A stretch of 64,000 bases of DNA, taken from NCBI GenBank assembly GCA_003212535.1, contig QCPO01000006.1:1-64000 (forward strand), read 5' to 3'. Positions 37,748 through 59,200 of this stretch are shown piece after piece. The notes beneath the pieces were generated by a model. The model did not search any database, was not told the origin of the DNA, and saw only the letters and a list, made by a program, of their open reading frames with translations. Every line of letters starts with the position of its first letter. Positions within the stretch are counted from its first letter, which is position 1. The position numbers and the translations under genes are program-made. This DNA is from Prochlorococcus sp. AG-436-O11 (GTDB lineage: Bacteria; Cyanobacteriota; Cyanobacteriia; PCC-6307; Cyanobiaceae).

Positions 37748-37754
37748 TTAAGTC

Positions 37755-40721: not shown

Positions 40722-40739
40722 TCAAAAATTCTATGATAT

Positions 40740-41729: not shown

Positions 41730-41757
41730 TACTAAAGAGATAAATTCATAAAGTGTT

Positions 41758-42706: not shown

Positions 42707-42720
42707 TAAATTTGATCAGA

Positions 42721-42753
42721 ATTTGTCCGCAATTTGTCCGCAATTTGTCCGCA
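42721..42753. repeat. Arm-type repeat B (TTTGTCCGCA x3)
   Basis: Three perfect direct repeats of ATTTGTCCGCA, about 50 bp left of fragment 13. Here the repeats are on the opposite side of the tRNA fragment from those at fragment 12. Confidence 0.65.
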
Positions 42754-42803
42754 GTTGTTGCAGACAATAAATTTAGATTTATAACTTCCCCTGCTATGAC
42801 TGA

Positions 42804-42848
42804 TCGGGGCGACAGGATTCGAACCTGCGACCTAGTGCTCCCAAAGCA
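42804..42848 (-). repeat. tRNA-Pro 3' fragment 13
   Basis: Exact match up to CCCAAAGCA. Left border of the restriction cassette. Confidence 0.93.
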
Positions 42849-43058
42849 ACTGGTCAAATTAAGCTATATTTAGACTTTTTAGTCATAACAACAGTAGTAG
42901 CAATATGCTAGTGTTTTGTATTGTTCGTAAATGTTCACTAGAGGTTGACTTTTTCCCACGTTTTTCCCACAGGGCACTTTCTCTTGACCTAGTGCTCTTA
43001 AATCTAAAAGATTTTTAAGACAAAATAAAATAAAATTTGAGTAATAAAAGTTAGGTAA

Positions 43059-44111: not shown

Positions 44112-44116
44112 AATAT

Positions 44117-45172
44117 CTAATAATCAAAGGAGGGATCGAAAAGTTCTTCTATTGAATCTCTTATTGTTGAAATTGGCCTTACGTATTTCTTCGTAGAGTG
44201 ATCATCAAGAAATTCTCTATATTTTATGTCATGATCTGGAAGATAAATAATATGTCCTCTTAATCCGAGCTGTCTGCATTGTTCAAAAGATAAATCGCAA
44301 TCCCTAAAAAACCAAACGACTCTACTTATTTTCAGTTTTAGAAGAGTCTCTCTATTTTCAACCATAGCTTGTTTATATCTCTCTCTGGCAGTTGTTTTAC
44401 AACTAATCAAAAGCATATTCCCGAATTTTCCACCTTTTTTAATTACGTGATCAGCCTCTAAAATACCTGTGATATGGGGGGGGACGTCCTCTAATTTTTT
44501 ACCGATATGTTCAAGAATACATTGAACAGATAACTCAAGTCCATCTCCTGCAGATTTCTTTCCACCATTAGTACATCTTCCATGAAAAAGAACCAAGGAA
44601 GAATTAATACATTGTTTTTGCAACTCTTCATTTAATGGATATTTAGATTCTTTTAAGCTTAATTCCATTTTTTTTACCAATTCATGCCCCAAACTATCTT
44701 TTATAACTTGACTTGCTTCGTAAGAGTATTTACTCCAATTAGAAATTAAATTATTCAAAGCATTGTCACCATTTATTTCTAAATCTGTCTTGGCATCATC
44801 CATAGCGATATTTTGCATGATTTTCACTTCTTTTCCGTTTTCTTCTAATGCCTCATTAGTTAGTGGTCCAATTATTTGTTGACAATTGAAGAGTATTTCA
44901 AGAGCATTTGGGATTGATAAATATTTTTTTAAATAATTTTTAAGTGATTTATATTTTTCTCTTTTAGATAAGGAACGAGAATCAAAGATTTTGTTTCTAA
45001 ATATATCTTCAAGGCCCTCATAAATATCTAAATTTAATTCCAAAATATTTGAAATTGATTTTGCCATAAACTCCATCTTTTTTTGATTTTTATTTATTGC
45101 TCCATAATCTTCACTAACCAAAACTCTTAAAAATAAAAAAGATAAATTTTTATTTTCAACTTTGGAGTTCAT
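44117..45172 (-). CDS. Type II restriction endonuclease (EcoRII-C-like PD-(D/E)XK)
   Basis: 351 residues. The catalytic core GDGLELSVQCILEHIGKKLE, then GILEADHVI and LLISCKTTARERYKQA, gives E-x-D ... C-K-T-T-x-R-x-R-x-K-Q, as in EcoRII-type C-terminal nucleases. Start ATG overlaps the methyltransferase stop by 4 bp (ATGA), a classic R-M pair. Contains a C8 run on the coding strand (44,476-44,483) that could slip. It cleaves unmodified phage DNA; recognition site unknown, though a Dcm-like partner hints at a CCWGG-type site. Confidence 0.78.
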   Translation of the reverse strand: MNSKVENKNLSFLFLRVLVSEDYGAINKNQKKMEFMAKSISNILELNLDIYEGLEDIFRNKIFDSRSLSKREKYKSLKNYLKKYLSIPNALEILFNCQQIIGPLTNEALEENGKEVKIMQNIAMDDAKTDLEINGDNALNNLISNWSKYSYEASQVIKDSLGHELVKKMELSLKESKYPLNEELQKQCINSSLVLFHGRCTNGGKKSAGDGLELSVQCILEHIGKKLEDVPPHITGILEADHVIKKGGKFGNMLLISCKTTARERYKQAMVENRETLLKLKISRVVWFFRDCDLSFEQCRQLGLRGHIIYLPDHDIKYREFLDDHSTKKYVRPISTIRDSIEELFDPSFDY

Positions 45173-46422
45173 ATTATTATTTTTACCATATTTCTTGCGA
45201 TTTCTCTTATCACTGGAACAGATACCGAATTCCCAAACTGTTTATATATTTGAACATCAGAAACAGCTGACACATTGAATTCATCAGGAAACCCTTGTAT
45301 TCGTGCACATTCCCTCGGAGTTAACTTTCTTGGATTTTTATTAATATCACTTTGATCAATTAATATTTCGCTCCCATCTTTGTAGTATCTAGCGCTGATT
45401 GTATTACAGAAAGAACTTTCAGTATTAAATAAGGAATAACCAAAACCATTCCCTTTGATTTTATGCTCTTTCTTTCGTCTTATATGTCCTGCTAGTAATC
45501 TGTCTGAAATAGTATATTTCTCTTCAACCTTAGAATTCTCTTCAAGAACATCCCCTAGCCTAGTAATCGATTTTTTTTGCTCCAAGGTAGAAAACATTTC
45601 TTCGATTTTTTTATCTAAGGCATCTGTATTTTTAAAATAATCCCTATTAAAACCAACAATATAAATCCTTTCTCTTTTTTGAGGTATCCCAAAATTATTA
45701 GCTCTTAATACTCTAAAATCAACCGCATAATTCAGTTTTTTATTCATACTTTTTCTAACTTCATCAGAAACTGGATAATCTTGAGGTATGTTTTGCTTAT
45801 TCTCTCCTCGTAAAATTTCTAAAATTGTTTTTAGTGTTTTCCCCTTATCATGACCTTTTAATTGTTTGACGTTTTCAAGAAGAAAGGCTTTAGGTTGTTT
45901 TGCAGCAAGTATTCTTTGAATCTCAAAAAACATTGTTCCTCTCGTATCTGTAAATCCCTTCTTAAGGCCTGCTTGTGAAAATGCCTGACAGGGAAATCCT
46001 GCCAAAAGAATGTCATGAGATGGAATTTGATTAGTTTGGATTTTAGTTATATCTCCATTAGGAAGCTCACCATAGTTGGATGCATATGTTTTGATTGCAA
46101 ATTTGTCCCACTCAGAACTAAAGAGACATTTACCATTTAGCTGCTGAAAAGGAAGTCTTATTCCACCAATTCCTGCAAACAAATCTATGAATGTAAAATC
46201 TGGTTTTTTAGAGGATTCTTTAAAAGGGATTAATGTAGATAAATTTTTAATTATTTTTAGCTTTGCATCGGTTGGTGAATGTTCGCCTCTTTCCCATCCG
46301 CTAATTGTTCTATCACCTGAATCTTTTAAATTTAATAAAAAGGCAAATTCTTTTTGAGTTAATCCAAGACTTTCTCTTCTATGTTTAATTAAATCTTTTG
46401 ATTGAAGTAAGGTATCTTCCAT
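45169..46422 (-). CDS. dcm: C5-cytosine DNA methyltransferase with N-terminal XRE HTH
   Basis: 417 residues. Residues 10-65 form an XRE-type HTH (IKHRRESLGLTQKEFAFLLN, ISGWERGEHSPTDAKLKII), then a C5-MTase: FIDLFAGIGGIRLPFQQLNG (motif I), the catalytic Cys in LLAGFPCQAFSQAGLKKGF (IV), AFLLENVKQL (VI), FGIPQKRERIYIVGF (VIII), QFGNSVSVPV (X). The HTH probably represses its own promoter, as in EcoRII/SsoII-type systems. Protects host DNA from the overlapping REase. Confidence 0.93.
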   Translation of the reverse strand: MEDTLLQSKDLIKHRRESLGLTQKEFAFLLNLKDSGDRTISGWERGEHSPTDAKLKIIKNLSTLIPFKESSKKPDFTFIDLFAGIGGIRLPFQQLNGKCLFSSEWDKFAIKTYASNYGELPNGDITKIQTNQIPSHDILLAGFPCQAFSQAGLKKGFTDTRGTMFFEIQRILAAKQPKAFLLENVKQLKGHDKGKTLKTILEILRGENKQNIPQDYPVSDEVRKSMNKKLNYAVDFRVLRANNFGIPQKRERIYIVGFNRDYFKNTDALDKKIEEMFSTLEQKKSITRLGDVLEENSKVEEKYTISDRLLAGHIRRKKEHKIKGNGFGYSLFNTESSFCNTISARYYKDGSEILIDQSDINKNPRKLTPRECARIQGFPDEFNVSAVSDVQIYKQFGNSVSVPVIREIARNMVKIII

Positions 46423-46496
46423 AAATATCTTTATATTTTTAGAACATATCCAACAATATTCGCAGGGTCAACTACTAGATAGATTTTCTTAAGGTT

Positions 46497-46895
46497 TTAT
46501 TGAGAAATATCTTTTAATTTTGAGCATAAGTGAAATTTTTTATCTTTGATCTCACATTCCCAAACATTTATTATTTTCCATCCCAACTCATTTAATTGAG
46601 ATTGCTTTAATTTATCTCTCTTTTTATTTCCCTCTAACTTATTTTTCCAGAAATCGGTTTTTGTTTTGGGTAAACACGCATATTTGCAATCTTCATGCTG
46701 ATGCCAAAAGCATCCATTAACAAAAATAGCCGTTTTATATTTAGGTAGAACAATATCTGGATTCCCAGGTAAATCTTTTCTATGTAATCTAAAACGATAT
46801 CCCATCTCATGAAGTATTTTTCTTACTTCAATTTCTGGCTTTGTATTTTTCGATTTAATTGCAGCCATATTTCTAGATCTGGCTTCACTGGTCAT
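46497..46895 (-). CDS. vsr: Vsr very-short-patch repair endonuclease
   Basis: 132 residues, full length. SRNMAAIKSKNTKPEIEVRK, the catalytic Asp in PGNPDIVLPKYKTAIFVNGC, FWHQHEDCKYACLPKTKTDF (zinc Cys/His) and LNELGWKIINVWECEI. Nicks at T:G mismatches produced by deamination of 5-methylcytosine at the cognate methyltransferase site, so it belongs with the Dcm-like gene 75 bp downstream. Confidence 0.95.
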   Translation of the reverse strand: MTSEARSRNMAAIKSKNTKPEIEVRKILHEMGYRFRLHRKDLPGNPDIVLPKYKTAIFVNGCFWHQHEDCKYACLPKTKTDFWKNKLEGNKKRDKLKQSQLNELGWKIINVWECEIKDKKFHLCSKLKDISQ

Positions 46896-47152
46896 TTTTT
46901 GAAGTTTCTTTAATTTTTAAGAATGTATAAACATACTAATTAGTATTTTCAGAGATGAAAATACTTTAAAAAATTCGTACCTAGAAAATCTAAGAGGCTC
47001 GAAAATACTCATCTATAAACGCTCAGAAAGAACCTAATAAAAAAATAAAGTTTTAATTTTATTAAAAGATCCAGAGCATAGTAGGTTTTCTCTCATCCAT
47101 ATTTTTCCCACATTTTCCCCACGAGCAATATTAGCAATCTTTGTAATCCCAA

Positions 47153-47199
47153 TCGGGGCGACAGGATTCGAACCTGCGACCTAGTGCTCCCAAAGCACT
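47153..47199 (-). repeat. tRNA-Pro 3' fragment 14: distal attachment site of the complete element
   Basis: The 46 nt from TCGGGGCGACAGGATTCGAA to CCCAAAGCAC are identical to 55,610-55,655 of the intact tRNA-Pro. These direct repeats bracket the recombinase/replication genes. Confidence 0.93.
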
Positions 47200-47289
47200 G
47201 GGCGTTATTTTTAAGAAAACCTTGAGACTTTAGTTATAGCCTAGACTAATTATAGATGGTGGAACGAGTTTGAGACAACATATTGCAAT

Positions 47290-47301
47290 ATCTTCGAAGA
47301 T
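47290..47301. promoter_or_regulatory. ATCTTCGAAGAT palindrome, copy 2 (recombinase 5' region)
   Basis: Perfect 12-bp palindrome 9 bp upstream of ATG 47,310. Same motif at 55,502 and 28,055, and as a 10-bp core at 49,640. Candidate operator or recombinase site. Confidence 0.6.
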
Positions 47302-47309
47302 CATACAAG

Positions 47310-48635
47310 ATGTTTATAGATGCTAGCTCCCCCTCTAGCTCCCCCTTCTACGACCTAGTGCTTATGCCAAAGCGATCACATACAGAAGATTGGATAGAAG
47401 CTATTAGAGTTTTCATTAGAGATACTCTAGGGAATAAGAATTGGCAAATTATAGAAAATAAGGGAAAGGCTAGATTAGGAATAAGATTCGAAGATGGTAC
47501 AAGAACTTACAAATATCTTCCCTACAAGTGGCAAAGATCAAATCAAAATGAGATTAGACATTTTATTGAATCAGTTCATTATCTTCATATAAAAAAGAAA
47601 GTTCCAATAGATGAAGCATTTGAAAGAGTAAAAGCTAGAGCACCTAAAGATAAACTTCCACAAAGTAAAACTGACCCACAAGTTTTGTTAGATGCTTGGA
47701 AGAAGTATGGAGATTTTAAAATTAATACTTCAGGAGATATTTCCCAACAAACTTGGGATAAAGGTTATGCAAAAACTTTTAGGAAGTTAGAGCAAGTTGC
47801 TGATTCTCAGGATGCAATAAATCTATTAAAAAATATAGGTAAGTTTAATGAAGCAGGAAGTAGATCAAGAGAAGAAAATGTTCAAAGAATAGCTAGTTTT
47901 TTAAGATGGGCTACAAGCAAAGAGAGTGGATACTTATTAGATAGTGAAATATGGAATCCTCCTCCAAAATTTAATCTTCAAGATTTTAAAGGTAAGAAAT
48001 CTAGGCAACTTCAGCAAAGAACTCAAGATCCTACAACACCTATAGAAGATAATGATTTATTTAGATTAATTGAAAGTTTAAATTTAACTCCTGAAGAGAA
48101 AAAACATAGAGTTGAGGATAGAGCAAAGGAGTGGAGCTTTGCTATTAAGTTGATGGCTACTTATGGTTTAAGACCAATAGAAGTGCAATATCTTGAAGTA
48201 AGGAGAAATGGTAAGGATACTGTATGGTGCACCTATGCCAAGAAGTCAGGTGGAGGTATTGGTCAAGCTAGAAGATTATTTCCATTGCATCCTACTTGGG
48301 AAAAAAATTGGAATTTAATTCAAAAAATCAAAAAAAAATCTCCACTTCCAAGAATGAAAGCAGGTGCAGCAGAAGCCTTCAAAAATTACATGAGATTTAA
48401 TCCTGTATGGAAAGAATTAAAAGAAAAAGGATGCAAAGGATATAGCTTTAGACATGCTTGGGCTATGAGAGCACACTTGGAGTATGGATTACATCCAAGA
48501 GAAGCAGCACCAATGATGGGTCACAGTTTGGAAAGTCATCAACAATACTCAAGATTCTTCAATGAAGAGTTATTAGAGGAATCATTTGAGAGAGCTATTG
48601 AAAGAAGAAAAGCTACACATGACGTTAAATCTTAG
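47310..48635 (+). CDS. Tyrosine recombinase (integrase) of the tRNA-Pro element
   Basis: About 441 residues from ATG 47,310; ATG 47,364 (MPKRSHTEDW) is the more natural start because the codons between encode the repeated flank SSPSSSP. C-terminal catalytic domain: Arg I in LMATYGLRPIEVQYLEV, box II Y-S-F-R-H-A-W-A (Tyr where His is common), His in MMGHSLESH and nucleophile Tyr in QQYSRFF. The N-terminal part is probably a core/arm-binding domain. It stands just inside the distal repeat, the tycheposon arrangement. Expected to recombine the tRNA-Pro 3' end. Confidence 0.9.
   Translation: MFIDASSPSSSPFYDLVLMPKRSHTEDWIEAIRVFIRDTLGNKNWQIIENKGKARLGIRFEDGTRTYKYLPYKWQRSNQNEIRHFIESVHYLHIKKKVPIDEAFERVKARAPKDKLPQSKTDPQVLLDAWKKYGDFKINTSGDISQQTWDKGYAKTFRKLEQVADSQDAINLLKNIGKFNEAGSRSREENVQRIASFLRWATSKESGYLLDSEIWNPPPKFNLQDFKGKKSRQLQQRTQDPTTPIEDNDLFRLIESLNLTPEEKKHRVEDRAKEWSFAIKLMATYGLRPIEVQYLEVRRNGKDTVWCTYAKKSGGGIGQARRLFPLHPTWEKNWNLIQKIKKKSPLPRMKAGAAEAFKNYMRFNPVWKELKEKGCKGYSFRHAWAMRAHLEYGLHPREAAPMMGHSLESHQQYSRFFNEELLEESFERAIERRKATHDVKS
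47326..47361. repeat. Attachment-flank sequence inside the recombinase 5' end
   Basis: TAGCTCCCCCTCTAGCTCCC then CCTTCTACGACCTAGTGCT. The first part equals the left flank of the intact tRNA-Pro (55,515-55,540), the second resembles the tRNA core CGACCTAGTGCT. About 80 bp between them are missing relative to the tRNA locus. Confidence 0.55.
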
Positions 48636-48739
48636 AAGATCTATTGAAATCTTAGAAGATGGCTACATAATGATATTAATGTCGTGGCAATCCTCAGATT
48701 TAATCTAGTAATGTCCTTTGCTCGACTTCTGGTAATTAG

Positions 48740-48775
48740 AGTTCGAATCCTAGTTATTGGCGGATAGACAGGCGA
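48740..48775 (+). other. tRNA-T-arm-like sequence
   Basis: AATTAGAGTTCGAATCCTAG then TTATTGGCGGA: contains the universal GTTCGAATCC loop with weak flanking pairing, on the plus strand, unlike all tRNA-Pro fragments. I cannot fold a full tRNA around it. Possibly a fragment of another tRNA. Confidence 0.3.
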
Positions 48776-48802
48776 TTTTGTTCAACTTTTAGCTTTTTAC
48801 TA

Positions 48803-49084
48803 TTGGCAACTAAGAAACCCAACAAATTTAAAAAATCATCAACTATTGATGGAAAGTTTGTGAAGGTTTTTAATTCTGATAAATCTGCTGAACAAATCTC
48901 AAAGGACATAGACAGAATGTTTCCTAATCATAAAAGAGGTGGTTCTTACGTTTATATAAACGGAGAAGAATCTCAAGTGTTTGAGGGAATATCAACTGGA
49001 ATGGTACTAGAAAAAGGTAACTTCGAGTGGACTAAAGAAGAACTAGCAGTAGCAAGAGCTAAGGGAATAAAAATCAATAGCTAA
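48803..49084 (+). CDS. 93-residue hypothetical protein in the element
   Basis: From TTG 48,803. MATKKPNKFKKSSTIDGKFV, NSDKSAEQISKDIDRMFPNH, GGSYVYINGEESQVFEGIST. Basic N-terminus, mixed fold. Its stop touches the ATG of the next gene (TAAATG), so it is operonic with the excisionase-like gene. Function unknown. Confidence 0.6.
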   Translation: MATKKPNKFKKSSTIDGKFVKVFNSDKSAEQISKDIDRMFPNHKRGGSYVYINGEESQVFEGISTGMVLEKGNFEWTKEELAVARAKGIKINS

Positions 49085-49324
49085 ATGTCAAATAAGCCTT
49101 CGTATGAAGGCAAATGGGTAACTACTGCTGTAATAGCAAGTGAGTTAAATTTTAATCCTGTTTACTTCATACAGAAAGCGAAGAAACTTGAGAAGGATGG
49201 TGTATTCGAATATGGATTTCATTACTTCAAAAGTGGAGCTTCTAACTCATGTTCCTATCAATGGAATTTTAGTGAGATAAAGAAAACCTTCTCCAAGTGG
49301 AGAGCACCTTCTAGGGAGGTGTGA
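49085..49324 (+). CDS. Excisionase-like helix-turn-helix protein
   Basis: 79 residues. KWVTTAVIASELNFNPVYFI followed by QKAKKLEKDGVFEYGFHYFK is the winged-helix layout of AlpA/Xis-type factors, with a wing and a terminal helix (YQWNFSEIKKTFSKWRAPS). In an element with a tyrosine recombinase it would be the directionality factor for excision; that role is inferred from fold and position. Confidence 0.6.
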   Translation: MSNKPSYEGKWVTTAVIASELNFNPVYFIQKAKKLEKDGVFEYGFHYFKSGASNSCSYQWNFSEIKKTFSKWRAPSREV

Positions 49325-49325
49325 T

Positions 49326-49484
49326 ATGTCACATGATGATATAGAAAGAAAGAGGGTGGAGCTAGAAATGTCTCTAGCTAATGAGATCCACATGTCAGAT
49401 AAAAGTAAGTATGAGTTGATTAGAAAAATAATGGATGTATTAGAAGAATCTATGGAAGACGATAGAAGACTTGATGATGATTAA
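49326..49484 (+). CDS. 52-residue acidic helical protein
   Basis: MSHDDIERKRVELEMSLANE, then YELIRKIMDVLEESMEDDRR, ending LDDD. Starts one base after the previous stop (TGATATG context). Last gene before a terminator. Function unknown. Confidence 0.55.
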   Translation: MSHDDIERKRVELEMSLANEIHMSDKSKYELIRKIMDVLEESMEDDRRLDDD

Positions 49485-49494
49485 AAACAAGAAG

Positions 49495-49525
49495 CCCCCA
49501 AGAATGAAAAAACTTAGGGGGTTTT
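49495..49525 (+). terminator. Terminator of the integrase/excisionase operon
   Basis: CCCCCAAG ... CTTAGGGGG followed by TTTT. Confidence 0.75.
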
Positions 49526-49639
49526 CATTTGAGTACCACGTCAAACTATCTTGGGATAATCTCTTAGCAGGATATTATCCACTTTTTTTATAGGTCAAAT
49601 TAACTGCAAGTTCTATTAATTCGTAAACAAATATCAATT

Positions 49640-49649
49640 TCTTCGAAGA
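49640..49649. promoter_or_regulatory. TCTTCGAAGA palindrome upstream of the replication operon
   Basis: 10-bp core of the ATCTTCGAAGAT motif, followed by TCATC as at 28,055. About 95 bp before the RHH-like gene. Confidence 0.5.
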
Positions 49650-49724
49650 TCATCTCAACTTATAAAAGGGAAAAATATTAAAAAGTTATATCTCTTCTTA
49701 ACAGAGTTAGTTTTGGATTAACAC

Positions 49725-49744
49725 GTTAAACAAGTTAGACAACA
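49725..49744 (+). promoter_or_regulatory. Tandem operator-like repeat, replication operon
   Basis: GTTAAACAAGTTAGACAACA: two 9-bp-spaced half-sites GTTAAACA and GTTAGACA directly before ATG 49,745. 18 of 20 bases recur at 53,957. Confidence 0.65.
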
Positions 49745-49954
49745 ATGATGACGGAAGAGCAAAAATTAGAGTTTTATCAATCTGAATATCGTGGTGCTCC
49801 TTTTGCAAAGTTTATTAGTTTTAGATGTACTGAACCACTACAAAGATTTCTAGATACAAAAGCAATGATCGAGGGAAGAGACATATCTCAAATTATTAGA
49901 AGGTTATTAACTAAAGCAGCAGAAGAGGAGGGATTCGATAGAAATGCAATTTAA
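49745..49954 (+). CDS. 69-residue RHH-like regulator
   Basis: FAKFISFRCTEPLQRFLDTK then AMIEGRDISQIIRRLLTKAA: strand followed by two helices, the CopG/MetJ plan. Overlaps the primase-helicase start by 11 bp. Likely binds the tandem operator at its own start and at 53,957; this is inference from fold and position. Confidence 0.6.
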   Translation: MMTEEQKLEFYQSEYRGAPFAKFISFRCTEPLQRFLDTKAMIEGRDISQIIRRLLTKAAEEEGFDRNAI

Positions 49955-52418
49955 ACATAAGATCTTCGAAGCCCTGAAGAATAATCCTGAAGGGTGGAGA
50001 TTTTGTAATTGTTGGGATAAGGAAGCTAAGTATGCAGGGAATCATTTTAAAAGTCCTTTTACTTTGGATGATGTACTTAATCAAAAAGGAAATGGGGTTG
50101 GAGTTCTACTCGGTGGACATAGTACAACAACTATTAATGGGAAGAAGTATGGATTAGGTGCAATAGATTTTGATGGAACTAATTCTGACTTAAGTTTTGA
50201 ACATTATGTAGGATTTGATCCTGCTGCACTTACAAAAACTGTTACTGTTGCAAGTGGGAAAAAAGATAGAAAGCAAATGTTCTATTGGATTCCTGAAGAA
50301 TATTTAGATGTATTGAAGAAGAAACAGCTTCAACATCAAGATTATGCAAACTTTGAACTAAGAATAGGAAATCATTACTCAATGGTTGCAGGAGTACATC
50401 CTGAAACTGATGGTTATTTTTGGGTTAACTCTCCTGCTGATACTGATATAGCTATAGCTCCACTTCTTCTCCTAGAAGGTTGGGAGGAGTTATCAAAGGA
50501 TGATGATGATAAGCCTGAAGAAATTATTGTTTATCAAAGATCTAGAGATGAGTTGATCTATGACTCTTCTAGAGTTCCAAGATATTTAGAAAAGTTTTTT
50601 TCTCCTGCTATTAATTACGCTGAGCCTAGAGAAGAGTGGATCAAAATAATACAAGCTCTTCGTCATCTATCTCAAGAGTGGGAAGATCTTACAGGAGAAA
50701 AGGATAAACATTTAAAGGATGCTGATAAATGGTGCAGCCAAATGGGGGAATATTATGATCGCAAAGATTTGCATAAGACTTGGTATAGCTTCAAGAGAAA
50801 TCCTACTGATAAAAATACAGTTACTATTTCTACTTTCTTCCATAAAGCAAAGCAACATCCTAATTGGAAAGACGAAGTCAAATTCCAGGGGGATCAAAAA
50901 GAAAAGCCAAAAAGGAAAAGAAGTGAGTTATTAAATGATCTAATCAAACATGCAAAGAGTCATAACTTGGATGATTATTTTGAAGACTTTGCAGAAATGG
51001 AGCATAGGTTTAAAAGAAGTCCTTCAGATATAAATAATGATTTATTGAATGTTTTAAGAGATAGTTATTCCTCCAAGTCCTTCAAGGTTGGGGAAGTAGA
51101 TATGAGTAAGGTTGATGATTTGGAATACATCTTGGAGGGCTTCCTCATTCGTGGAGAAAATCACCAATTCTACGCTGGAGCAGGTATGGGGAAGACTTCC
51201 TTATTAGCAGGGATGATTAAATCAGGATATAAGGGCATAGGATTCTTAAATCACACTAGAAGAAGAAATAAATTTAGAACCTTATGGATTGCTTGTGATG
51301 GCTCTTCCTCAAGGTTTAAGAGTGTTTATGAGGATATGGGACTTAATCCTGAAATGGTTGATGTACTAGGAGGAGATCTTAAGCAGGGTTTAACTAATTG
51401 GAAATGGAATATTCCTAATTTGATCCTACTAAGGAAGATTCTTGAAGATCAGGAGAAGAATTATGGGCTAGTGGTTTTTGATAGTGTAAAAGGGATGTTA
51501 AGTGGTACAGGCTTCAAGTACATAGATAATGAGCATGCTGATTCTATATGCCAATTTTTAAGAGAAATAATAGGAGAGCCACTTGGGATGGCTTGTGTAT
51601 TGATTAATCATCTATCTAATGATGGCAAAGCAGGAAGTGGAGCTAAGAGATGGGGAGAAGCAGTTGCAATGAATGTAGAAATTAAACCTGTTATAGATCC
51701 TTCTGGAAATGATGGAGGGCAAGGAGTAGGGATTAATCATAATGAGAGGAAACTTTGTATTTGGAAAGATCCAATAGGGGGAAGAAGGCTATTTGATTAC
51801 ATGATTAATAGAGATGGAATATTTGTTCCTAGTTATAAAACTGATACTGTTGGAGATTGCTTCCAAGCAGTTAAAAAGTTTTTAGTGGAATCTAATTTCA
51901 AAACAGGCCAAAGTCTTTTTAAAAGAACTGAAATTCATGCAGGAGTAAATAATTACTCAAGAGCACATGTTGATAGAACTATTAAGGAACATCTTGGAAA
52001 ACTTGGAATGTTAAAGCAACAAAAAGATTCCAATGGGAAAGTACAAAGAGGAAGATTTGTATTAAAAGTAAAATTTAAACTCAATAAAGAAATAACTGAA
52101 CAAGAAGCAATGGATTTATATGAAAACCCTACTAAATACATAGAAGCAACTAACAAAATGTGGGGCAAAAAAGAAGATATGGATTATTGGGATGCTGACC
52201 CTGCTACTCTTCCTCCTAAAAAAGAAAAAAAAGAAGAGAAGGATTATTCCCATTTCTTTATCAAAGGAACTCCTGAAGATCCTCTAGCTCCTCATCCTGA
52301 TAGAAATAGTATTAAACCTGAAGGATCTACAACTGAGATGACAAGTGGAGACAAAATTGATGTATTTAAGGGAGCTATGGAATCCAATGAAGCAAAGGAT
52401 CAAATAATTGATCTTTAA
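49944..52418 (+). CDS. Primase-polymerase/helicase replication protein
   Basis: 824 residues. Residues 1-190: Prim-Pol/D5-N-like (LGAIDFDGTNSDLSFEHYVG with catalytic Asp-x-Asp; NFELRIGNHYSMVAGVHPET). Residues 220-310: PriCT-like helical bundle (IKIIQALRHLSQEWEDLTGE). Residues 380-620: RecA-fold helicase/AAA_25 with Walker A FYAGAGMGKTSLLAGMI (about 411) and Walker B LVVFDSVKGM. A C-terminal winged-helix-like region and a charged tail follow. It should initiate element replication, as in phage satellites. Confidence 0.82.
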   Translation: MQFKHKIFEALKNNPEGWRFCNCWDKEAKYAGNHFKSPFTLDDVLNQKGNGVGVLLGGHSTTTINGKKYGLGAIDFDGTNSDLSFEHYVGFDPAALTKTVTVASGKKDRKQMFYWIPEEYLDVLKKKQLQHQDYANFELRIGNHYSMVAGVHPETDGYFWVNSPADTDIAIAPLLLLEGWEELSKDDDDKPEEIIVYQRSRDELIYDSSRVPRYLEKFFSPAINYAEPREEWIKIIQALRHLSQEWEDLTGEKDKHLKDADKWCSQMGEYYDRKDLHKTWYSFKRNPTDKNTVTISTFFHKAKQHPNWKDEVKFQGDQKEKPKRKRSELLNDLIKHAKSHNLDDYFEDFAEMEHRFKRSPSDINNDLLNVLRDSYSSKSFKVGEVDMSKVDDLEYILEGFLIRGENHQFYAGAGMGKTSLLAGMIKSGYKGIGFLNHTRRRNKFRTLWIACDGSSSRFKSVYEDMGLNPEMVDVLGGDLKQGLTNWKWNIPNLILLRKILEDQEKNYGLVVFDSVKGMLSGTGFKYIDNEHADSICQFLREIIGEPLGMACVLINHLSNDGKAGSGAKRWGEAVAMNVEIKPVIDPSGNDGGQGVGINHNERKLCIWKDPIGGRRLFDYMINRDGIFVPSYKTDTVGDCFQAVKKFLVESNFKTGQSLFKRTEIHAGVNNYSRAHVDRTIKEHLGKLGMLKQQKDSNGKVQRGRFVLKVKFKLNKEITEQEAMDLYENPTKYIEATNKMWGKKEDMDYWDADPATLPPKKEKKEEKDYSHFFIKGTPEDPLAPHPDRNSIKPEGSTTEMTSGDKIDVFKGAMESNEAKDQIIDL

Positions 52419-52710
52419 CCTATATGTATGGGTGCAGGAGGAGAACAAGCTAAGAAATAAGAATATAACTAGAGAATTAGCCCTTTTTTGATGAGTAATC
52501 GCATGAGAACATGAGAACAATAGCTCCACCTTCTTCTTTTACTCATTACTCATTGTCCTACTCATATTTATTTTCTAATTATTCATTGGTATAACTACTA
52601 TTTTTAATTAATTATCCTCATAGACCTATACATATATAAGAGAGTGGTGCAATTTTTCGAGGTTAAGAAAAAAGGGTTTAGGCTGTAAGAAAAGGATTAT
52701 TTATTGATTA

Positions 52711-52893
52711 ATGGATTTAACAAGAGATATTGACTCATTTAAGAGAAGACTTAATAAAGTAGCACCAAGAGTAGATCCTCCAAAGTTAAAAATGAATATA
52801 TTTACTGAAGAAGAGTGGAACAATAAAAAACCCATTGAGAAAGATCAATGGGCATTAACTTTAATAATTGAAGAAAAACGGCCTTTAATGTAA
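52711..52893 (+). CDS. 60-residue hypothetical protein
   Basis: MDLTRDIDSFKRRLNKVAPR, NIFTEEEWNNKKPIEKDQWA. Soluble, charged, ends next to the convergent short recombinase (3-bp gap). Function unknown. Confidence 0.5.
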   Translation: MDLTRDIDSFKRRLNKVAPRVDPPKLKMNIFTEEEWNNKKPIEKDQWALTLIIEEKRPLM

Positions 52894-52896
52894 TTT

Positions 52897-53472
52897 TTAA
52901 GCAAATAATGCTCTAGCTTTCCTTTTCTCATCATCATCAACCTGTAAATACAGGGAAAGAGTATTCAAGGATTGATGGCCTGAGATGGACTTAATCACAT
53001 TAAGAGGAACTTGCTTTCTATGGAGTTGAGTTAATTGAGTTCTTCTAAAACTATGACTAGATACTCCTGAGATTTTCGCCCTTTCAGTAGCTTTATCAAG
53101 TGCATCCATAAAACTTCTTGTAGTTTGATGAGTACCTTCTTTTCTTCCATAAAATAGGAAATCTTCTGGAAGAGGTTTTCGCCCTTTATAGATAGTCCAA
53201 TATCTACTCCAATCCATTAAGTACTTATGAAAACTTTCACTTATAAAGATTTCTCTTGATGCAAGTTTTCTTTTAGTGATTGAAGCAGGAAAGAGTATTT
53301 GCTCTTTTCCTATATCTCTCCATTTAAGTTGAACAACTTCTCCAACTCTTGCTCCTGTATTTCTTAAAGTTGCAGCTACAACTTTTTGATTCCTAGATTT
53401 TAAATATTTAATAACTAAATCTAGTTCAGGAGTATTTAAAACCTTTGCTTGTCCAAAGCGATTATTTTTCAT
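52897..53472 (-). CDS. Short XerD-like tyrosine recombinase (catalytic domain only)
   Basis: 191 residues with a complete active site: Arg in LRNTGARVGEVVQLKWRDIG, Lys in SITKRKLASREI, His-x-x-Arg in SSHSFRRTQLTQLH, His in SISGHQSLNTLSLY and Tyr in SLYLQV. It lacks the N-terminal SAM-like core-binding domain, so it is about 100 residues shorter than XerC/D. Could resolve dimers, act on a second site, or assist the large recombinase. Transcribed opposite to the rest of the element. Confidence 0.85.
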   Translation of the reverse strand: MKNNRFGQAKVLNTPELDLVIKYLKSRNQKVVAATLRNTGARVGEVVQLKWRDIGKEQILFPASITKRKLASREIFISESFHKYLMDWSRYWTIYKGRKPLPEDFLFYGRKEGTHQTTRSFMDALDKATERAKISGVSSHSFRRTQLTQLHRKQVPLNVIKSISGHQSLNTLSLYLQVDDDEKRKARALFA

Positions 53473-53619
53473 TTAGAAGATCTCCCTATCAATAGAATCT
53501 TTTAATTCTTCTCTTTGGGAATGATCTAAAAAACAAATAATAGATCTAATTAAATAATCTTTATCAAATGCTGCTAAGTCATCAATAAGATCTTCTCTTA
53601 ATTGTTCAGGGTTTTTCAT
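53473..53619 (-). CDS. 48-residue acidic helical protein coupled to the short recombinase
   Basis: MKNPEQLREDLIDDLAAFDK then DYLIRSIICFLDHSQREELK. Stop directly abuts the recombinase ATG (TAAATG). Possibly a regulator or DNA mimic; function unknown. Confidence 0.6.
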   Translation of the reverse strand: MKNPEQLREDLIDDLAAFDKDYLIRSIICFLDHSQREELKDSIDREIF

Positions 53620-54014
53620 TTTTAAGTGGTGTTTGTGGTACTAAGACGTAGCAATGGTTTTATACTTCGTCTTATTCTTATTTTACGAAGTCAGGAGCAA
53701 AGATAAACCTAATTTATTGATAGTTGTAGTAAACAATACGATAGTATTTCTTATGTAATTTGATTAAACAATAGAGAGTCTTAATATCAGTAATAGCAAT
53801 GTATTTAGTCTTTTTTATTACTTATACTAATTTGACAAATAAGGTAGGGGAGAGTAGCAAAAATATCAACTTCAGATCGCTAGACGGGGTACTTAATTAA
53901 TAAGTTAAATATACATTAGTTTATAATATTTAGCAAGGATAATCTTCAGAAAAAATGTTAAACATGTTAGACAATATTTAGAGTTAATATTAATAATATA
54001 GTCTTCTTATTTTA
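53620..54014. other. Divergent control region of the element
   Basis: 395 bp between the leftward recombinase operon and the rightward packaging operon. AT-rich, no ORF. It contains the tandem operator repeat at 53,957 and must hold two promoters; possible origin-like AT tracts but no clear iterons. Confidence 0.5.
53957..53976 (+). promoter_or_regulatory. Tandem operator-like repeat, packaging operon
   Basis: GTTAAACATGTTAGACAATA, 18/20 as at 49,725; 38 bp before ATG 54,015. Links control of replication and packaging genes. Confidence 0.65.
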
Positions 54015-54272
54015 ATGAGAGAGGATCTCGAACATAACTTCGATTTAGCAGAGTTTAACAACTCCTGTAGGGTTATGAAATGTGCAAGACAGCTATTTCC
54101 TCATAGTGAAAAACAAGCACAGTTATGGGCTGTTTACGCTTATGAGAGATGGACTAGAGGAGAAGGTGGTACTCCTGAAATGCAACGAGATCGCAGAAAT
54201 CCTAACTGGAAAAAATCTCTCGAAATGTTTGAAAAAAGAAGAGCTAGAACAAAACTTATTTACTACAAATAA
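54015..54272 (+). CDS. 85-residue hypothetical protein, packaging operon gene 1
   Basis: MREDLEHNFDLAEFNNSCRV, KCARQLFPHSEKQAQLWAVY, AYERWTRGEGGTPEMQRDRR. Helical, basic C-terminus. First of three tightly packed genes (2-bp gap to the next). Function unknown, possibly virion or packaging accessory. Confidence 0.6.
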   Translation: MREDLEHNFDLAEFNNSCRVMKCARQLFPHSEKQAQLWAVYAYERWTRGEGGTPEMQRDRRNPNWKKSLEMFEKRRARTKLIYYK

Positions 54273-54274
54273 CT

Positions 54275-54757
54275 ATGGATTATCCAATGATTGATAATAC
54301 TGATGCTTACATAGCAGTTTGTGAGAAAGCTAATCTTCCAATTAATAAAGTTCCTAAGAAGGGAGATGATATTTCACTTGCTTATGAGATGGCAATGAAG
54401 GAATTAAATCCTCATCTTTATCAGAATATAACTTCTCCTGATCCTGATGATCTTCCTGCTGATGTAGCTAAAAGATATAAGCAGGGGATGATGTGGGTAG
54501 ATGATTTAAACGCTTATGAGGAATGTGGTTTTACAGGAACAGCAGCAAATATTAGAAAAGCAATGGAACAAGCTCAGCAACAAATGATAGAGCAAAAAAC
54601 TGCTGAGATGAAGGCTAGAAATGATGCTAGGGATGAAGCTCAAAGAAATAAACCTAGTGGATTTACACCACAGAAAAATATAAGTTTTTGGGATCCTTCA
54701 GCAGTTGCATTTAGAAGACAACACAACATATCTGATGATGTAGGTGCAGGTTGTTGA
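54275..54757 (+). CDS. 160-residue hypothetical protein, packaging operon gene 2
   Basis: An acidic N-terminal half (DDISLAYEMAMKELNPHLYQ, PDPDDLPADVAKRYKQGMMW) and a Gln/Ala/Glu-rich coiled coil (KAMEQAQQQMIEQKTAEMKA), like phage scaffolding or head-associated proteins in composition. Overlaps the next gene by 7 bp. No family assigned. Confidence 0.55.
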   Translation: MDYPMIDNTDAYIAVCEKANLPINKVPKKGDDISLAYEMAMKELNPHLYQNITSPDPDDLPADVAKRYKQGMMWVDDLNAYEECGFTGTAANIRKAMEQAQQQMIEQKTAEMKARNDARDEAQRNKPSGFTPQKNISFWDPSAVAFRRQHNISDDVGAGC

Positions 54758-55167
54758 CTTTATCTTCATTAAAAAATGAAATCCCAGAAAATATAAGGAT
54801 GGGATTAATAGCAAAAGGAGAGGGAGCTACTTGGGAAACTGCTGCAAAAATTGCAAAAACTACTAGATATGAGATGCAGCAATGGAGAGGTCATCCTGAT
54901 GCTGAAGCAATTATCAATACTGCTTTTCACTTAGCTTTAGAGGAAGCCTATGGAGTACTAGCTAATGCTGCACCAGAATTATCTAGAAGACTTGTAGCTA
55001 TAGGATTAAATCCAAAAACTCCTGCTTATGCTGCTACTCCTGCAATATTAGGGTGCATGTCTATTCTTCAAGAAGGAGTAATTAATAGACAAAATAAATT
55101 AGAAATGAGAAAAATAAGAGAATCTATTGAAAGATTAGAAGGAGAACCTCAAGCAATAGATATTTAA
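54751..55167 (+). CDS. Terminase small subunit-like protein
   Basis: 138 residues from TTG 54,751. KGEGATWETAAKIAKTTRYE then MQQWRGHPDAEAIINTAFHL is an HTH followed by the helical segment seen in phage small terminase subunits. ALEEAYGVLANAAPELSRRL and KIRESIERLEGE extend it as a coiled oligomerisation region. There is no large terminase in the element, as in phage satellites that redirect a helper's packaging motor. Assignment from pattern and context. Confidence 0.6.
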   Translation: MLTLSSLKNEIPENIRMGLIAKGEGATWETAAKIAKTTRYEMQQWRGHPDAEAIINTAFHLALEEAYGVLANAAPELSRRLVAIGLNPKTPAYAATPAILGCMSILQEGVINRQNKLEMRKIRESIERLEGEPQAIDI

Positions 55168-55202
55168 AAGAAAAGCTCCACACTTGGGTGGAGCAAAACT
55201 AG

Positions 55203-55218
55203 AGTAATCGACTGTCAA
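55203..55218 (-). promoter_or_regulatory. Degenerate island promoter half (minus strand)
   Basis: TTGACAGTCGATTACTC on the minus strand matches the -35 and spacer start of the cassette, with no -10 following. Remnant. Confidence 0.4.
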
Positions 55219-55219
55219 T

Positions 55220-55369
55220 CTATTCCAAAATATCAGAATATTCCTCCATTATTTTTGGTGGAATTTCTAACTTATGGGAAAGATAAAAAGATTTGATTTC
55301 TTTAAATCTTTCTAGACGAGGATTGGTAGTGAAATTAAAATCACTAGCCTTCATTCCATTAACAGGCAT
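55220..55369 (-). CDS. 49-residue hypothetical protein
   Basis: A good ribosome site (AGGAG, 7 bp upstream) decides ATG at 55,369. MPVNGMKASDFNFTTNPRLE, FKEIKSFYLSHKLEIPPKIM. Convergent to the terminase-like gene; the last gene before tRNA-Pro. The IPPKIMEEYSDILE end recalls the peptide at 24,531. Confidence 0.6.
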   Translation of the reverse strand: MPVNGMKASDFNFTTNPRLERFKEIKSFYLSHKLEIPPKIMEEYSDILE

Positions 55370-55501
55370 TTGTATTCTCCTATGGGTAAGTGGACTATAT
55401 AAATCTGTTTATCGTCAGACAGAAAACGTTAGCTTTGCGATATAAAAATAATACTACATATATAAGGAATAAAAAGTATCAAAGACCGCACCTTTTTCAA
55501 G

Positions 55502-55513
55502 ATCTTCGAAGAT
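55502..55513. promoter_or_regulatory. ATCTTCGAAGAT palindrome, copy 3 (tRNA-proximal end)
   Basis: Perfect palindrome directly followed by ACTAGCTCCCCTCCTAGCTC, the same order as at the recombinase 5' end (47,290-47,345). So both ends of the element carry palindrome plus CTCCCC repeat. Confidence 0.6.
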
Positions 55514-55561
55514 ACTAGCTCCCCTCCTAGCTCCCCTTTCTCATTTGAGATTGCAAACATT

Positions 55562-55587
55562 AAAAAAGCGTGTCAGGGAAACACGCT
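55562..55587 (-). terminator. Terminator of tRNA-Pro
   Basis: Minus strand AGCGTGTTTCCCTGACACGC then TTTTTT, 23 bp past the tRNA end. Lies on element-side DNA, so it was probably supplied by the integrated element. Confidence 0.85.
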
Positions 55588-55609
55588 AGTATAACTTGGT
55601 TTTTAAGAG

Positions 55610-55683
55610 TCGGGGCGACAGGATTCGAACCTGCGACCTAGTGCTCCCAAAGCACCCGCGCTACCAAGCTGCGCCACGCCCCG
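55610..55683 (-). tRNA. tRNA-Pro(UGG), intact integration target
   Basis: 74 nt: acceptor CGGGGCG pairs with CGCCCCG, discriminator A, anticodon UGG in CTTTGGGAG, T loop GTTCGAATCC. Its 3' 46 nt are duplicated at 47,153 and in 13 further fragments to the left. The intact 5' half means each integration rebuilt a full tRNA. Confidence 0.97.
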
Positions 55684-56504: not shown

Positions 56505-56694
56505 CCTGATAAAAAATCAATACGAAAATTATTAAAAAATCTTTTAAGACGCTTTTATATCCAAGTTTAAATATTTTTTAAGAAGTTTTCGAAATGTACA
56601 GGTTAACAAACTGGCACTAAAATATATCAATGTATCGTTTTATACTTGATTTTGTATGCAGAAATACATTATTTTAAGGTGTACTTTAAATTTC

Positions 56695-56703
56695 GTGTGA
56701 GGA
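56695..56703 (+). promoter_or_regulatory. Yfr1-complementary site in porin 1 leader
   Basis: GTGTGAGGA overlaps the ribosome site and is the reverse complement of 9 nt of the ACUCCUCACAC motif of the cyanobacterial sRNA Yfr1, known to repress som porin mRNAs in Prochlorococcus. Predicted translational repression. Confidence 0.65.
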
Positions 56704-56708
56704 AATTT

Positions 56709-57863
56709 ATGAAGCTTTTTAAGAGCTTGCTTATAGCTCCTGCGACATTAGGCCTTCTAGCTCCTATGTCAGCAACAGCTAATGAGCTTAACATTGGTGA
56801 AGTATCTGGCTATTCTTCATCAGAAGAAGTTCAGAACATTAGCGAATTTAATTCTGAAGAACTTGCTGTTACTAAAAGTCGTGTAGATGGCCTAGAAGCA
56901 AGAATCAATAATTTTGAAGCTGGTTCTTTTTCAGAAACAACAACAGCATCATTCTCAGCTGATTTTGCTATTGGTGCAGTTGATGGTGTTGCAGCACAAG
57001 ACGCTGTTCAAGGCCTTTACGGTTTTCAAATCGATTTAAATACTAGTTTCACTGGTTCAGATTCTCTTGATGTATCAATAGATGCTGGTAACGGCGGCAA
57101 TGGTTTAACTGAATTAGACATTAACGAAACAACTGCTGATGACGCATTAGCTGTTGATGGTATTTCTTATACTTTCCCTGTTGGCGATAATCTAACCGTT
57201 ATGGTTGGTAACGACATTATGGGAAGTGAGCTTTACAATACTGCTTGTGTATACGGTGGAATCACTAATACATTAGATGATTGCGGTAATAAATATTCAG
57301 CAATGGATAAAACTGCAGCTACTGCACTTTCTGCTAGTTATGACATTAATGACAGATGGACAGCTGCTTTTGGTTATGAAGGTAATGGAGACACTTCATC
57401 TGGCCTTATGACTAAAGAAGGTAGTGATACTTACGGTGCTCAACTAACTTACACTGCTGATCGTTATGCTGCTTCTGTAACTTATGCAAATGCAGACACT
57501 TCAACTACAGATACTGTTTACTGGGGTCTTAATGGATATTGGACACCTTCAGAAGAAGGAACAGGTGTTCCTTCAATCAGTGTTGGTTATGAAGTAGGTA
57601 ACCCTGACAATACTTCTACTGATACAAGTCACTACTTTGTAGGATTCCAGTGGGATGAAATTGGTCCTGGAACACTTGGTGCTGCATTTGGTACAAAGGA
57701 TCATTATGCTGACGACGTAACTGAATACCTAATGTATGAGGCATTCTATTCATATCCAGTAAATGATGGCATGACTGTAACCCCTGTAATTTTCGTAAAG
57801 GAAACAGCATCATCAGATGATGACGAGACAGGTGTAATGGTTAAGACATCATTTAGCTTCTAA
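56709..57863 (+). CDS. som: Som-type outer-membrane porin, copy 1
   Basis: 384 residues from ATG 56,709 (upstream codons are in the leader). Signal peptide SLLIAPATLGLLAPMSATA, a short SLH-free linker with a helical VDGLEARINNFEAGSF, then an 18-stranded-barrel-like domain of alternating strands ending in VMVKTSFSF (terminal Phe for BAM insertion). Two Cys around TACVYGGITNTLDDCG. A nearly identical paralog follows. The major outer-membrane channel for small solutes. Leader has the Yfr1 site. Confidence 0.85.
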   Translation: MKLFKSLLIAPATLGLLAPMSATANELNIGEVSGYSSSEEVQNISEFNSEELAVTKSRVDGLEARINNFEAGSFSETTTASFSADFAIGAVDGVAAQDAVQGLYGFQIDLNTSFTGSDSLDVSIDAGNGGNGLTELDINETTADDALAVDGISYTFPVGDNLTVMVGNDIMGSELYNTACVYGGITNTLDDCGNKYSAMDKTAATALSASYDINDRWTAAFGYEGNGDTSSGLMTKEGSDTYGAQLTYTADRYAASVTYANADTSTTDTVYWGLNGYWTPSEEGTGVPSISVGYEVGNPDNTSTDTSHYFVGFQWDEIGPGTLGAAFGTKDHYADDVTEYLMYEAFYSYPVNDGMTVTPVIFVKETASSDDDETGVMVKTSFSF

Positions 57864-57900
57864 GTTATTAATTAATTTAGAAAATCTTACGCACATTATT

Positions 57901-57927
57901 AAAAACCTCCCTCTTGGGAGGTTTTTT
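57901..57927 (+). terminator. Terminator of porin 1
   Basis: AAAAACCTCCC-TCTT-GGGAGG-TTTTTT. Confidence 0.92.
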
Positions 57928-58004
57928 GTTTTAGACAGATAACATTATGTCTACTACAACTTGTTTAATTAAGTGTTTGCATCTATTATAAAAGTACCCT
58001 TTTT

Positions 58005-58013
58005 GTGTGAGGA
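58005..58013 (+). promoter_or_regulatory. Yfr1-complementary site in porin 2 leader
   Basis: GTGTGAGGA 7 bp before ATG 58,020, the same as in porin 1. Confidence 0.65.
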
Positions 58014-58019
58014 CAATTT

Positions 58020-59165
58020 ATGAAGCTTTTCCAACGTTTGTTGGTAGCTCCAGCAGCATTAGGGCTTTTAGCACCTATAACTGCAAATGCTACTGAGGTT
58101 AACCTCAATGATATTTCAAGCTACTCTGATGTAGAGAGCATTGAATTTGCTAACTCTTTTAATGTTGATGAATCAACAGAAACTGAACTACTTGCTGGTG
58201 GTGAAGGTTTAGTTCGTGGTAATAGCCATAACGGTGATTTCTCAGAAACAACAACTGCATCATTCTCAGCTGATTACGCTATTGGTGCAACTGATGGTGG
58301 TTCAAATGACACTTTTAAAGGTGTTTACGGTTTTCAAATCGATTTAAATACTAGTTTCACTGGTTCAGATTCTCTTGATGTATCAATAGATGCTGGTAAC
58401 GGTGGCAATGGTTTAACTGAATTAGACATTAACGAAACAACTGCTGATGACACATTAGCTGTTGATGGTATTTCTTATACTTTCCCTCTTGGCGATAATC
58501 TAACCGTTATGGTTGGTAACGACGTTATGGGAAGTGAGCTTTACAATACTGCTTGTGTATACGGTGGAATCACTAATACATTAGATGATTGCGGTAATAA
58601 ATATTCAGCAATGGATAAAACTGCAGCTACTGCACTTTCTGCTAGTTATGACATTGGTAGCGGATTTACAGCTGCTATTGGTTATGAAGGTAATGGAGAC
58701 ACTACATCTGGCCTTATGACTAAAGAAGGTAGTGATACTTACGGTGCTCAACTAACTTACACTGCTGATCGTTATGCTGCTTCTGTAACTTATGCAACTG
58801 CAGACACTTCAACTACAGACACCGAATACTGGGGTCTTAATGGATATTGGACACCTTCAGATACAGGAGCTATTCCTTCAATAAGTGTTGGTTATGAAGT
58901 AGGTAACGCTGACAATACAGACACTGATACAACTCACTACTTTGTAGGATTCCAGTGGGATGAAATGGGTCCTGGAACACTTGGTGCTGCAATAGGTACA
59001 AAGGATCATTATTCTAACAATACTACTGAATACCTAATGTATGAGGCATTCTATTCATATCCAATAAATGATAGTATGACTGTAACCCCTGTAGTTTATG
59101 TAAAGGAAGCATCTACAACATATGATGAAACAGGTGTAATGGTTAAGACATCATTTAACTTCTAA
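58020..59165 (+). CDS. som: Som-type outer-membrane porin, copy 2
   Basis: 381 residues: signal peptide RLLVAPAALGLLAPITANA, linker without the helical element of copy 1, then the same barrel (TTASFSADYAIGA to VMVKTSFNF). From about 58,329 to 58,790 the DNA is almost identical to 57,021-57,480, while the N-terminal linker and last strands differ, a sign of recent conversion or a recent tandem duplication with diversification of exposed parts. Confidence 0.85.
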   Translation: MKLFQRLLVAPAALGLLAPITANATEVNLNDISSYSDVESIEFANSFNVDESTETELLAGGEGLVRGNSHNGDFSETTTASFSADYAIGATDGGSNDTFKGVYGFQIDLNTSFTGSDSLDVSIDAGNGGNGLTELDINETTADDTLAVDGISYTFPLGDNLTVMVGNDVMGSELYNTACVYGGITNTLDDCGNKYSAMDKTAATALSASYDIGSGFTAAIGYEGNGDTTSGLMTKEGSDTYGAQLTYTADRYAASVTYATADTSTTDTEYWGLNGYWTPSDTGAIPSISVGYEVGNADNTDTDTTHYFVGFQWDEMGPGTLGAAIGTKDHYSNNTTEYLMYEAFYSYPINDSMTVTPVVYVKEASTTYDETGVMVKTSFNF

Positions 59166-59200
59166 GTTATTAATTAATTTAGAAAATCTTACGCACATTA

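Follow-up and report, generated by a model that had tools for sequence, protein, structure and literature searches.

An 8.5-kb integrative element and the series of att-bounded segments (cells) that extends beyond it were analysed in a 64,000-nt stretch (the window) of contig QCPO01000006.1 from Prochlorococcus sp. AG-436-O11. The target is an intact tRNA-Pro(TGG) gene at 55,609-55,683 on the minus strand, whose 3' part forms the right copy of the attachment site (att; 55,610-55,655). The left att copy at 47,153-47,198 (minus strand, 3' part of tRNA-Pro, nt 29-74) marks the distal end of the element, and the two 46-nt direct repeats are 100% identical with a spacing of 8,457 bp. The limits of the partial tRNA copies place the crossover window at about tRNA nt 33-40, in the anticodon loop, and the element's right end supplies a terminator-like hairpin downstream of tRNA-Pro (55,567-55,587, minus strand). 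A unique repeat pair is ruled out, as the 46-nt tRNA-Pro fragment occurs in about 14 copies between 18,782 and 55,610, all oriented alike, where chance predicts none (0 in 100 shuffles). Given these copies, the element is the tRNA-proximal and presumably the youngest cell in a stack spanning about 37 kb, and within this stack of about 14 cells it alone (47,153-55,655) encodes the tyrosine recombinase Int.

Gene families in the element were assigned from Pfam and PHROG profile matches, and conservation was assessed from the elements of relatives. Between the left att copy and Int, a non-coding stretch carries the palindrome ATCTTCGAAGAT (47,290-47,301) and a tandem repeat of two copies of CTAGCTCCCCCT (47,323-47,346), proposed as Int arm sites (P arm). 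Int itself (423 aa, 47,364-48,635, plus strand) combines an alpha-beta3-alpha N-terminal domain with a catalytic domain. It is followed on the plus strand by a 93-aa open reading frame (ORF; 48,803-49,084) kept in genome G247 and partly in G029, a 79-aa putative excisionase (49,085-49,324), a 52-aa ORF found in several relatives (49,326-49,484), a 69-aa ribbon-helix-helix (RHH)/CopG-Arc-like regulator (49,745-49,954), and an 824-aa primase-polymerase/helicase with Prim-Pol, PriCT_2 and AAA_25 domains (49,944-52,418), which gives the element a replication gene of its own, a satellite-type feature. A conserved 60-aa ORF (52,711-52,893, plus strand) converges with a second tyrosine recombinase of 191 aa, which consists of a catalytic (Phage_integrase) domain only (52,897-53,472, minus strand), and a 48-aa ORF conserved in G247 and G220 lies beside it (53,473-53,619, minus strand). 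The right part holds a plus-strand operon of three genes, encoding a highly conserved 85-aa backbone protein (54,015-54,272), a conserved 160-aa backbone protein (54,275-54,757) and a 138-aa protein resembling the terminase small subunit (TerS), with a helix-turn-helix (HTH) and a long helical hairpin (54,751-55,167). The palindrome ATCTTCGAAGAT recurs at 55,502-55,513, beside two copies of CTAGCTCCCC (55,515-55,536), the proposed P' arm; the end repeat of the element as a whole reads CTAGCTCCCC(C)T.

An earlier note on this DNA, made from the sequence alone, had described a complete integrative element bounded by identical 46-bp repeats from the tRNA-Pro 3' end, with a recombinase just inside the distal repeat, a prim-pol/helicase, a second short recombinase and a three-gene operon ending in a terminase-small-like protein, and all of this was borne out by the att copies and the genes listed. 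Its excisionase-like HTH stands in part: a small HTH/Xis-like ORF is conserved in position and family, on which the putative assignment is based, whereas the profile search gave no significant match. The note's inference of an intact, replication-competent satellite-type element is supported in part: the att copies and catalytic residues agree with it, and replication is a prediction from the prim-pol gene.

Both recombinases retain all their catalytic residues. In Int, alignment with relatives favours the start at ATG 47,364 over TTG 47,283; R287, K310, R380, H404 and the nucleophile Y412 (numbered from 47,313) are invariant in 15 of 15 aligned sequences, and the first residue of the HxxR motif of the window Int is Y. 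Int has no Pfam match and a weak PHROG match, compatible with a divergent family, and the model of its catalytic part has the tyrosine recombinase fold, with Z 12.2 to 3nkh (182 residues) and Z 11.2 to P2 Int (145 residues). The N-terminal model has the order alpha-beta-beta-beta-alpha, with a predicted local distance difference test score (pLDDT) of about 80-88, and this domain is proposed to bind the arm repeats. In the 191-aa recombinase, R42, K67, H140, R143, H166 and Y175 are invariant in 13 of 13 aligned sequences. With all these residues kept, the second recombinase may be active too, and a guess at its role is the resolution of multimers.

The 138-aa protein gives a middling model (HTH and long helical hairpin, pLDDT 74), and 6 of 18 members of its family match phrog_2538 (terminase small subunit), with a best E value of 0.003. 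The best PDB match in Foldseek is 2ao9, phage protein phBC6A51 (probability 0.98), and several small terminases are among the BFVD matches. In the VIA fold comparison, in which Z below 8 is not decisive, 2ao9 reaches Z 5.6 over 56 residues and the small terminases of Sf6, NV1 and G20c about 4; ClpB, EHBP1 and similar rows in the fold list are probably helical look-alikes. A PDB sequence search with the TerS and orf160 profiles returned chance-level matches, and TerS, orf160 and Int found no match among phage records. A moderate case can thus be made from profile, model and fold for TerS. Somewhat less than even weight is given to the alternative that an ordinary HTH regulator is encoded here and that vesicles, transformation or generalized transduction account for the spread of the element. 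The weakness of the signals (the E value and its 6 of 18 members, the Z of 2ao9, the phage records) speaks for this alternative, whereas the HTH plus long hairpin layout, the BFVD matches named terminase small subunit, the three phage TerS proteins in the fold list and the fixed last position in the backbone speak for TerS.

Most of the recent cells carry end repeats of their own besides the att boundaries. These tandem repeats have a period of 10-12 bp; the left one is set back from its att copy by about 130-190 bp and the right one precedes its att copy by about 25-90 bp. The repeats match within a cell and differ between cells. The match was evaluated as the summed left-right repeat match over non-redundant cells against permuted pairings, a score of 13 counting as matched. 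For 34 non-redundant cells the match sum is 480, compared with a permuted mean of 301 (standard deviation 13), and 0 of 100,000 permutations are as high; for 79 non-redundant cells it is 1189 compared with 698 (standard deviation 20), with 0 of 20,000 as high. Scores of at least 13 are reached by 51 of the 79 cells as against 4.4% of mismatched pairs, and by 17 of the 18 tRNA-proximal cells. An Int catalytic domain is encoded in 8 of the 79 cells. The other 71, most of the newest cells included, have no Int (int-less cells; median 2.0 kb), and taken alone they still give a match sum of 1040 compared with 623 ± 19.

The same pattern is visible along the window. The int-less cell at 42,804-47,152 encodes a Vsr endonuclease, a cytosine methylase and a T5orf172-type protein, and has end repeats at 42,950-42,970 (TTTTTCCCAC x2) and at 47,102-47,122. 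It is followed by an int-less cell at 39,602-42,803 with the end repeats ATTTGTCCGCA at 39,736 (x2) and 42,721 (x3), and by an int-less cell of 765 bp at 38,837-39,601 with ATTTGACCACT. Farther from the tRNA, the cells of the region 33,319-38,836, with starts at 33,319, 33,887 and 37,703, have end repeats that are absent or do not match (through recombination or decay), and the int-less cell at 29,115-33,318, with PstS-like, major facilitator superfamily (MFS), GAPDH and ArsR-like genes, has GATCGCCC at 29,289 and 33,270. In the oldest part of the stack (18,782-29,114; att copies at 18,782, 20,703, 21,740, 25,511 and 27,919) the end repeats are decayed or mismatched. The window's older cells are thus matched less often, as is expected from decay. 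As separate observations, both the Int element (at 47,352) and the int-less cell next to it (at 42,986) have an additional core-like copy, GACCTAGTGCT, immediately inside their left end repeats. Another contig of the same genome (L197, G000 C20, 773-1400) has a further tRNA-Pro 3'-half copy, adjoined by a terminator-like hairpin and a pilin-like gene that resembles the lectin/pilin gene of cell 37,703.

Int-less cells share their repeats with Int-encoding elements found elsewhere. The motif TTTTTCCCACGTTTTTCCCAC of the int-less cell at 42,804 also stands upstream of Int in G216, G124 and G118, and ATTTGTCCGCAATTTGTCCGCA of the cell at 39,602 upstream of Int in G093, each time at tRNA-Pro att copies. 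At its left end, cell 42,804 shares 98.8% identity over 168 bp with the left end of the G118 Int element, the identity stopping where the repeats end. One int-less cassette of 4,375 bp (PstS-like, MFS, GAPDH and ArsR-like genes; example copy L174, 13,310-17,685) is 98.2-99.6% identical in G069, G109, G112, G114, G121 and G133. It adjoins the tRNA in six of six genomes, where the alignable right flank is 67-84% identical and the left neighbours mostly differ; related cargo in the window is about 86% identical and lies between ends carrying another repeat.

These data bear on the view that int-less cells are decayed elements like cis-mobilizable elements (CIMEs), in which the cell's own Int has since been lost; the matched ends would then be fossils, and mobilization in trans would not occur. 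Matched ends are expected under such decay too, and loss of Int does happen: in G139, an in-frame fusion joins the N-terminal 106 aa of an Int to a protein which we take from its sequence to be RmuC-like, and which replaces the Int catalytic part (L091, 1390-2784). This gene was initially considered an Int N-terminal domain swap, a reading that was dropped, and because it is an Int fragment fused to RmuC-like cargo the number of Int-encoding cells was lowered from 9 to 8 of 79. Tandem CIMEs at tRNA genes are also known (PMC5704250), and the window cells at 18.8-47.1 kb resemble them in being att-bounded, arranged in tandem at the 3' end of a tRNA and devoid of recombinase genes. CIMEs are described as decayed elements moved in cis (PMC5704250), whereas int-less cells of the window type keep matched arms of their own at both ends, and one of them spread recently. 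Decay is further opposed by the missing remnants, since no Int or backbone remnant was found in the window cells at 18.8-47.1 kb and no recognisable Int N-terminal remnant in any int-less cell among the 79, by the near-identity of the 4,375-bp cassette in six genomes on mostly different neighbours, and by the predominance of cells without Int, most newest ones among them. The decay view is accordingly considered unlikely.

The end repeats are inferred to be Int arm sites, a reading suggested by phage-like sequences with the same layout. Six IMG/VR contigs (L189, L191, L192, L194, L195 and L196) have one tRNA-Pro core with matched repeats on both sides and an adjoining Int of the same family, with repeat scores of 12-21 within a contig and 6-12 between contigs. 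Because the contigs examined encode large and small terminase subunits, tail proteins, Erf and a sigma factor, the six look like tailed phages with a phage attachment site (attP), and are candidate temperate phages of marine picocyanobacteria. Among eight class-A Ints, a small sample, repeat similarity tracks the N-terminal domain, with a partial correlation of 0.70 (p=0.01) against -0.09 (p=0.71) for the catalytic part. With only 50% identity overall, the Ints of the window and of G067 have a near-identical N-terminal domain and repeat, and the G247 Int, 85% identical overall to the window Int, has a different repeat. Joint inheritance contributes to the class-A correlation, since the left repeats adjoin the N-terminal coding region; the right repeats, 8 kb from Int, match as well.

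Binding of the repeats by another element protein, such as Xis or the RHH regulator, is improbable and ranks somewhat below decay. The repeats do adjoin the int promoter region, where regulators bind, and the element has Xis-like and RHH genes, whereas the repeats stand at both ends, flank the core in the attP-like sites beside an Int of the same family, and in class A track an N-terminal domain modelled with the alpha-beta3-alpha order of arm-binding domains.

Relatives of Int were searched in 266 genomes of the genus, and those of the prim-pol and TerS-like proteins in 265. Int relatives are widespread and close ones few (G247 85%, G042 79%, the rest at most 49% identical), prim-pol relatives occur in 16 genomes and TerS-like ones in 34, and the 85-aa protein is present in further genera of the family as well. 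A backbone of Int, Xis-like, RHH, prim-pol, the small second recombinase, two proteins of unknown function and the TerS-like protein recurs in at least 10 Prochlorococcus elements of 7-10 kb; gene order is kept, frames are open, the prim-pol module is swapped in several, and zero to a few cargo ORFs lie between TerS and the right att. No capsid, portal or tail genes were recognised in these elements. The idea that the element is a defective prophage or phage remnant rather than a satellite with its own life cycle, encouraged by phages that share the Int family and att core and by the phage-like Int, prim-pol and TerS-like genes, is the least probable of the alternatives in view of this shared backbone, its order and its open frames.

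Occupancy of tRNA-Pro varies among relatives at the same locus. Of 14 further tRNA-Pro loci with a matching right flank, 13 retain the whole tRNA gene over the stretch taken; most of these carry an att-bounded stack of cells and none carries the element. Neither refuting outcome named in the earlier note, close relatives that all carry the segment or a recombinase without its nucleophile, was thus observed. The 5' side of the same tRNA-Pro is used as well, by Ints of about 30-35% identity with the same backbone that use the 5' half (nt 1-42). Such same-backbone elements 5' of tRNA-Pro were seen at L088, L089, L090, L092 and other loci, and several genomes have both sides occupied.

Built on the att copies, gene order, catalytic residues, matched ends, shared repeats, the recent spread of one int-less cassette and the attP-like phage arrangement, all read at sequence level, the interpretation held with good though not full confidence is that the element is an intact, Int-encoding tycheposon of satellite type, that the end repeats are arm sites, and that int-less cassettes are moved in trans. 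Int would recombine an attP core, the tRNA-Pro 3' half, with the tRNA gene in its anticodon-loop region; the inserted element would restore the tRNA 3' half and supply a terminator. The prim-pol may copy the excised circle, and the TerS-like protein may direct packaging by a helper phage. The tandem end repeats would serve as P and P' arm sites read by the Int N-terminal domain, and int-less cargo cassettes with matched arm repeats of their own would be moved in trans by Ints that are encoded elsewhere and read the same repeat. Repeated insertion at the tRNA would then stack the cassettes, the newest adjoining the tRNA. A bolder extension, for and against which the balance is about even, is that tRNA-Pro hosts a shared, integron-like exchange in which the arm repeats are address labels, any phage, satellite or element with a label-reading Int can move int-less cassettes in trans, and labels are exchangeable while the cargo stays.

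Several points weigh against this interpretation. The circular form and a same-strain empty site were both unseen, the nearest proxy being the 14 loci of relatives; relatives of prim-pol, orf85 and TerS were not found in viral-contig scans; the TerS identity comes from weak profile matches and a middling model; the 5'-side cells had no matched end repeats in the stretches tested; and each int-less cell may have lost its own Int. Over 37 Ints, the mis-called L091 included, the partial correlation of repeat with N-terminal domain is weak and not significant, at 0.067 (p=0.10). In Ints with an 11-bp period the repeat correlates no more strongly with the N-terminal domain than with the catalytic part, and in the L083 and L133 Ints, which have similar repeats, the catalytic parts are nearly the same and the N-terminal domains differ. 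A family-wide repeat-to-domain code is therefore unsupported: the correlation of 0.117 (p=0.003), obtained with de-duplication by N-terminal domain, drops to the 0.067 given above with de-duplication by whole protein, L091 being present in both.

Comparison with known systems places the element near the tycheposons of Prochlorococcus, which Hackl et al. (2023) reportedly described as tyrosine-recombinase elements at tRNA genes, with cargo-carrying and satellite-like forms, that drive island formation. That description is said to include seven tRNA genes and a deep-branching recombinase clade. The present element resembles them in tRNA insertion, a partial tRNA copy, a tyrosine recombinase with catalytic residues, variable occupancy and the same genus. 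Tycheposons are cited in PMC10872708, PMC10803314 and PMC11389934, the first of which names tRNA-Met only as their tRNA; cell-specific matched ends and an excess of int-less cells are undescribed in this literature citing tycheposons, the original description aside. In its integrase, excisionase-like gene, primase, the 6-10 kb size and the lack of capsid genes, the element also resembles phage-inducible chromosomal islands (PICIs, including the Staphylococcus aureus pathogenicity islands, SaPIs), phage-inducible chromosomal minimalist islands (PICMIs) and virion-encapsidated integrative mobile elements (VEIMEs), and its putative TerS-like gene would be a feature in common with PICIs. PICMIs insert at fis rather than at a tRNA and have no terS (PMC10803314), whereas the window element uses tRNA-Pro and has a TerS-like gene.

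The stack as a whole is rich in cassettes and poor in Int, with the newest cell adjoining the target, as in integrons. Integron arrays consist of many small cassettes with few integrases, the newest inserted beside the target. The tRNA-Pro cells differ in their tRNA-half core, in a phage-type Int with a proposed arm-binding domain and in most arrays having no resident integrase, and attC hairpins are not known there. The attP sites of lambda and Tn916 have a core flanked by directly repeated arm sites, with arm sites beside int. KplE1 likewise has a phage attP with arm-type sites (PMC2951348). The tRNA-Pro elements depart from this in that the arm sequence varies widely among elements sharing one bacterial attachment site (attB). 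On the best reading, then, what appears new is a labelled cassette system at tRNA-Pro, added to a tycheposon-like element with satellite features.

Prochlorococcus exchanges nutrient and defence genes in islands despite few known vehicles. If the labelling is real, a label at both ends would let sequence delimit every cassette and predict the recombinase that moves it, and would connect islands with the satellites and temperate phages using the same attachment site; the movement of small recombinase-free cargo would become a directly testable question.

Outside the stack, the window holds a small Int-like remnant at 13,257-13,364 (64% over 36 aa) and, at 56,646-59,200, porin-like genes in tandem duplication that are 73-95% identical in blocks.

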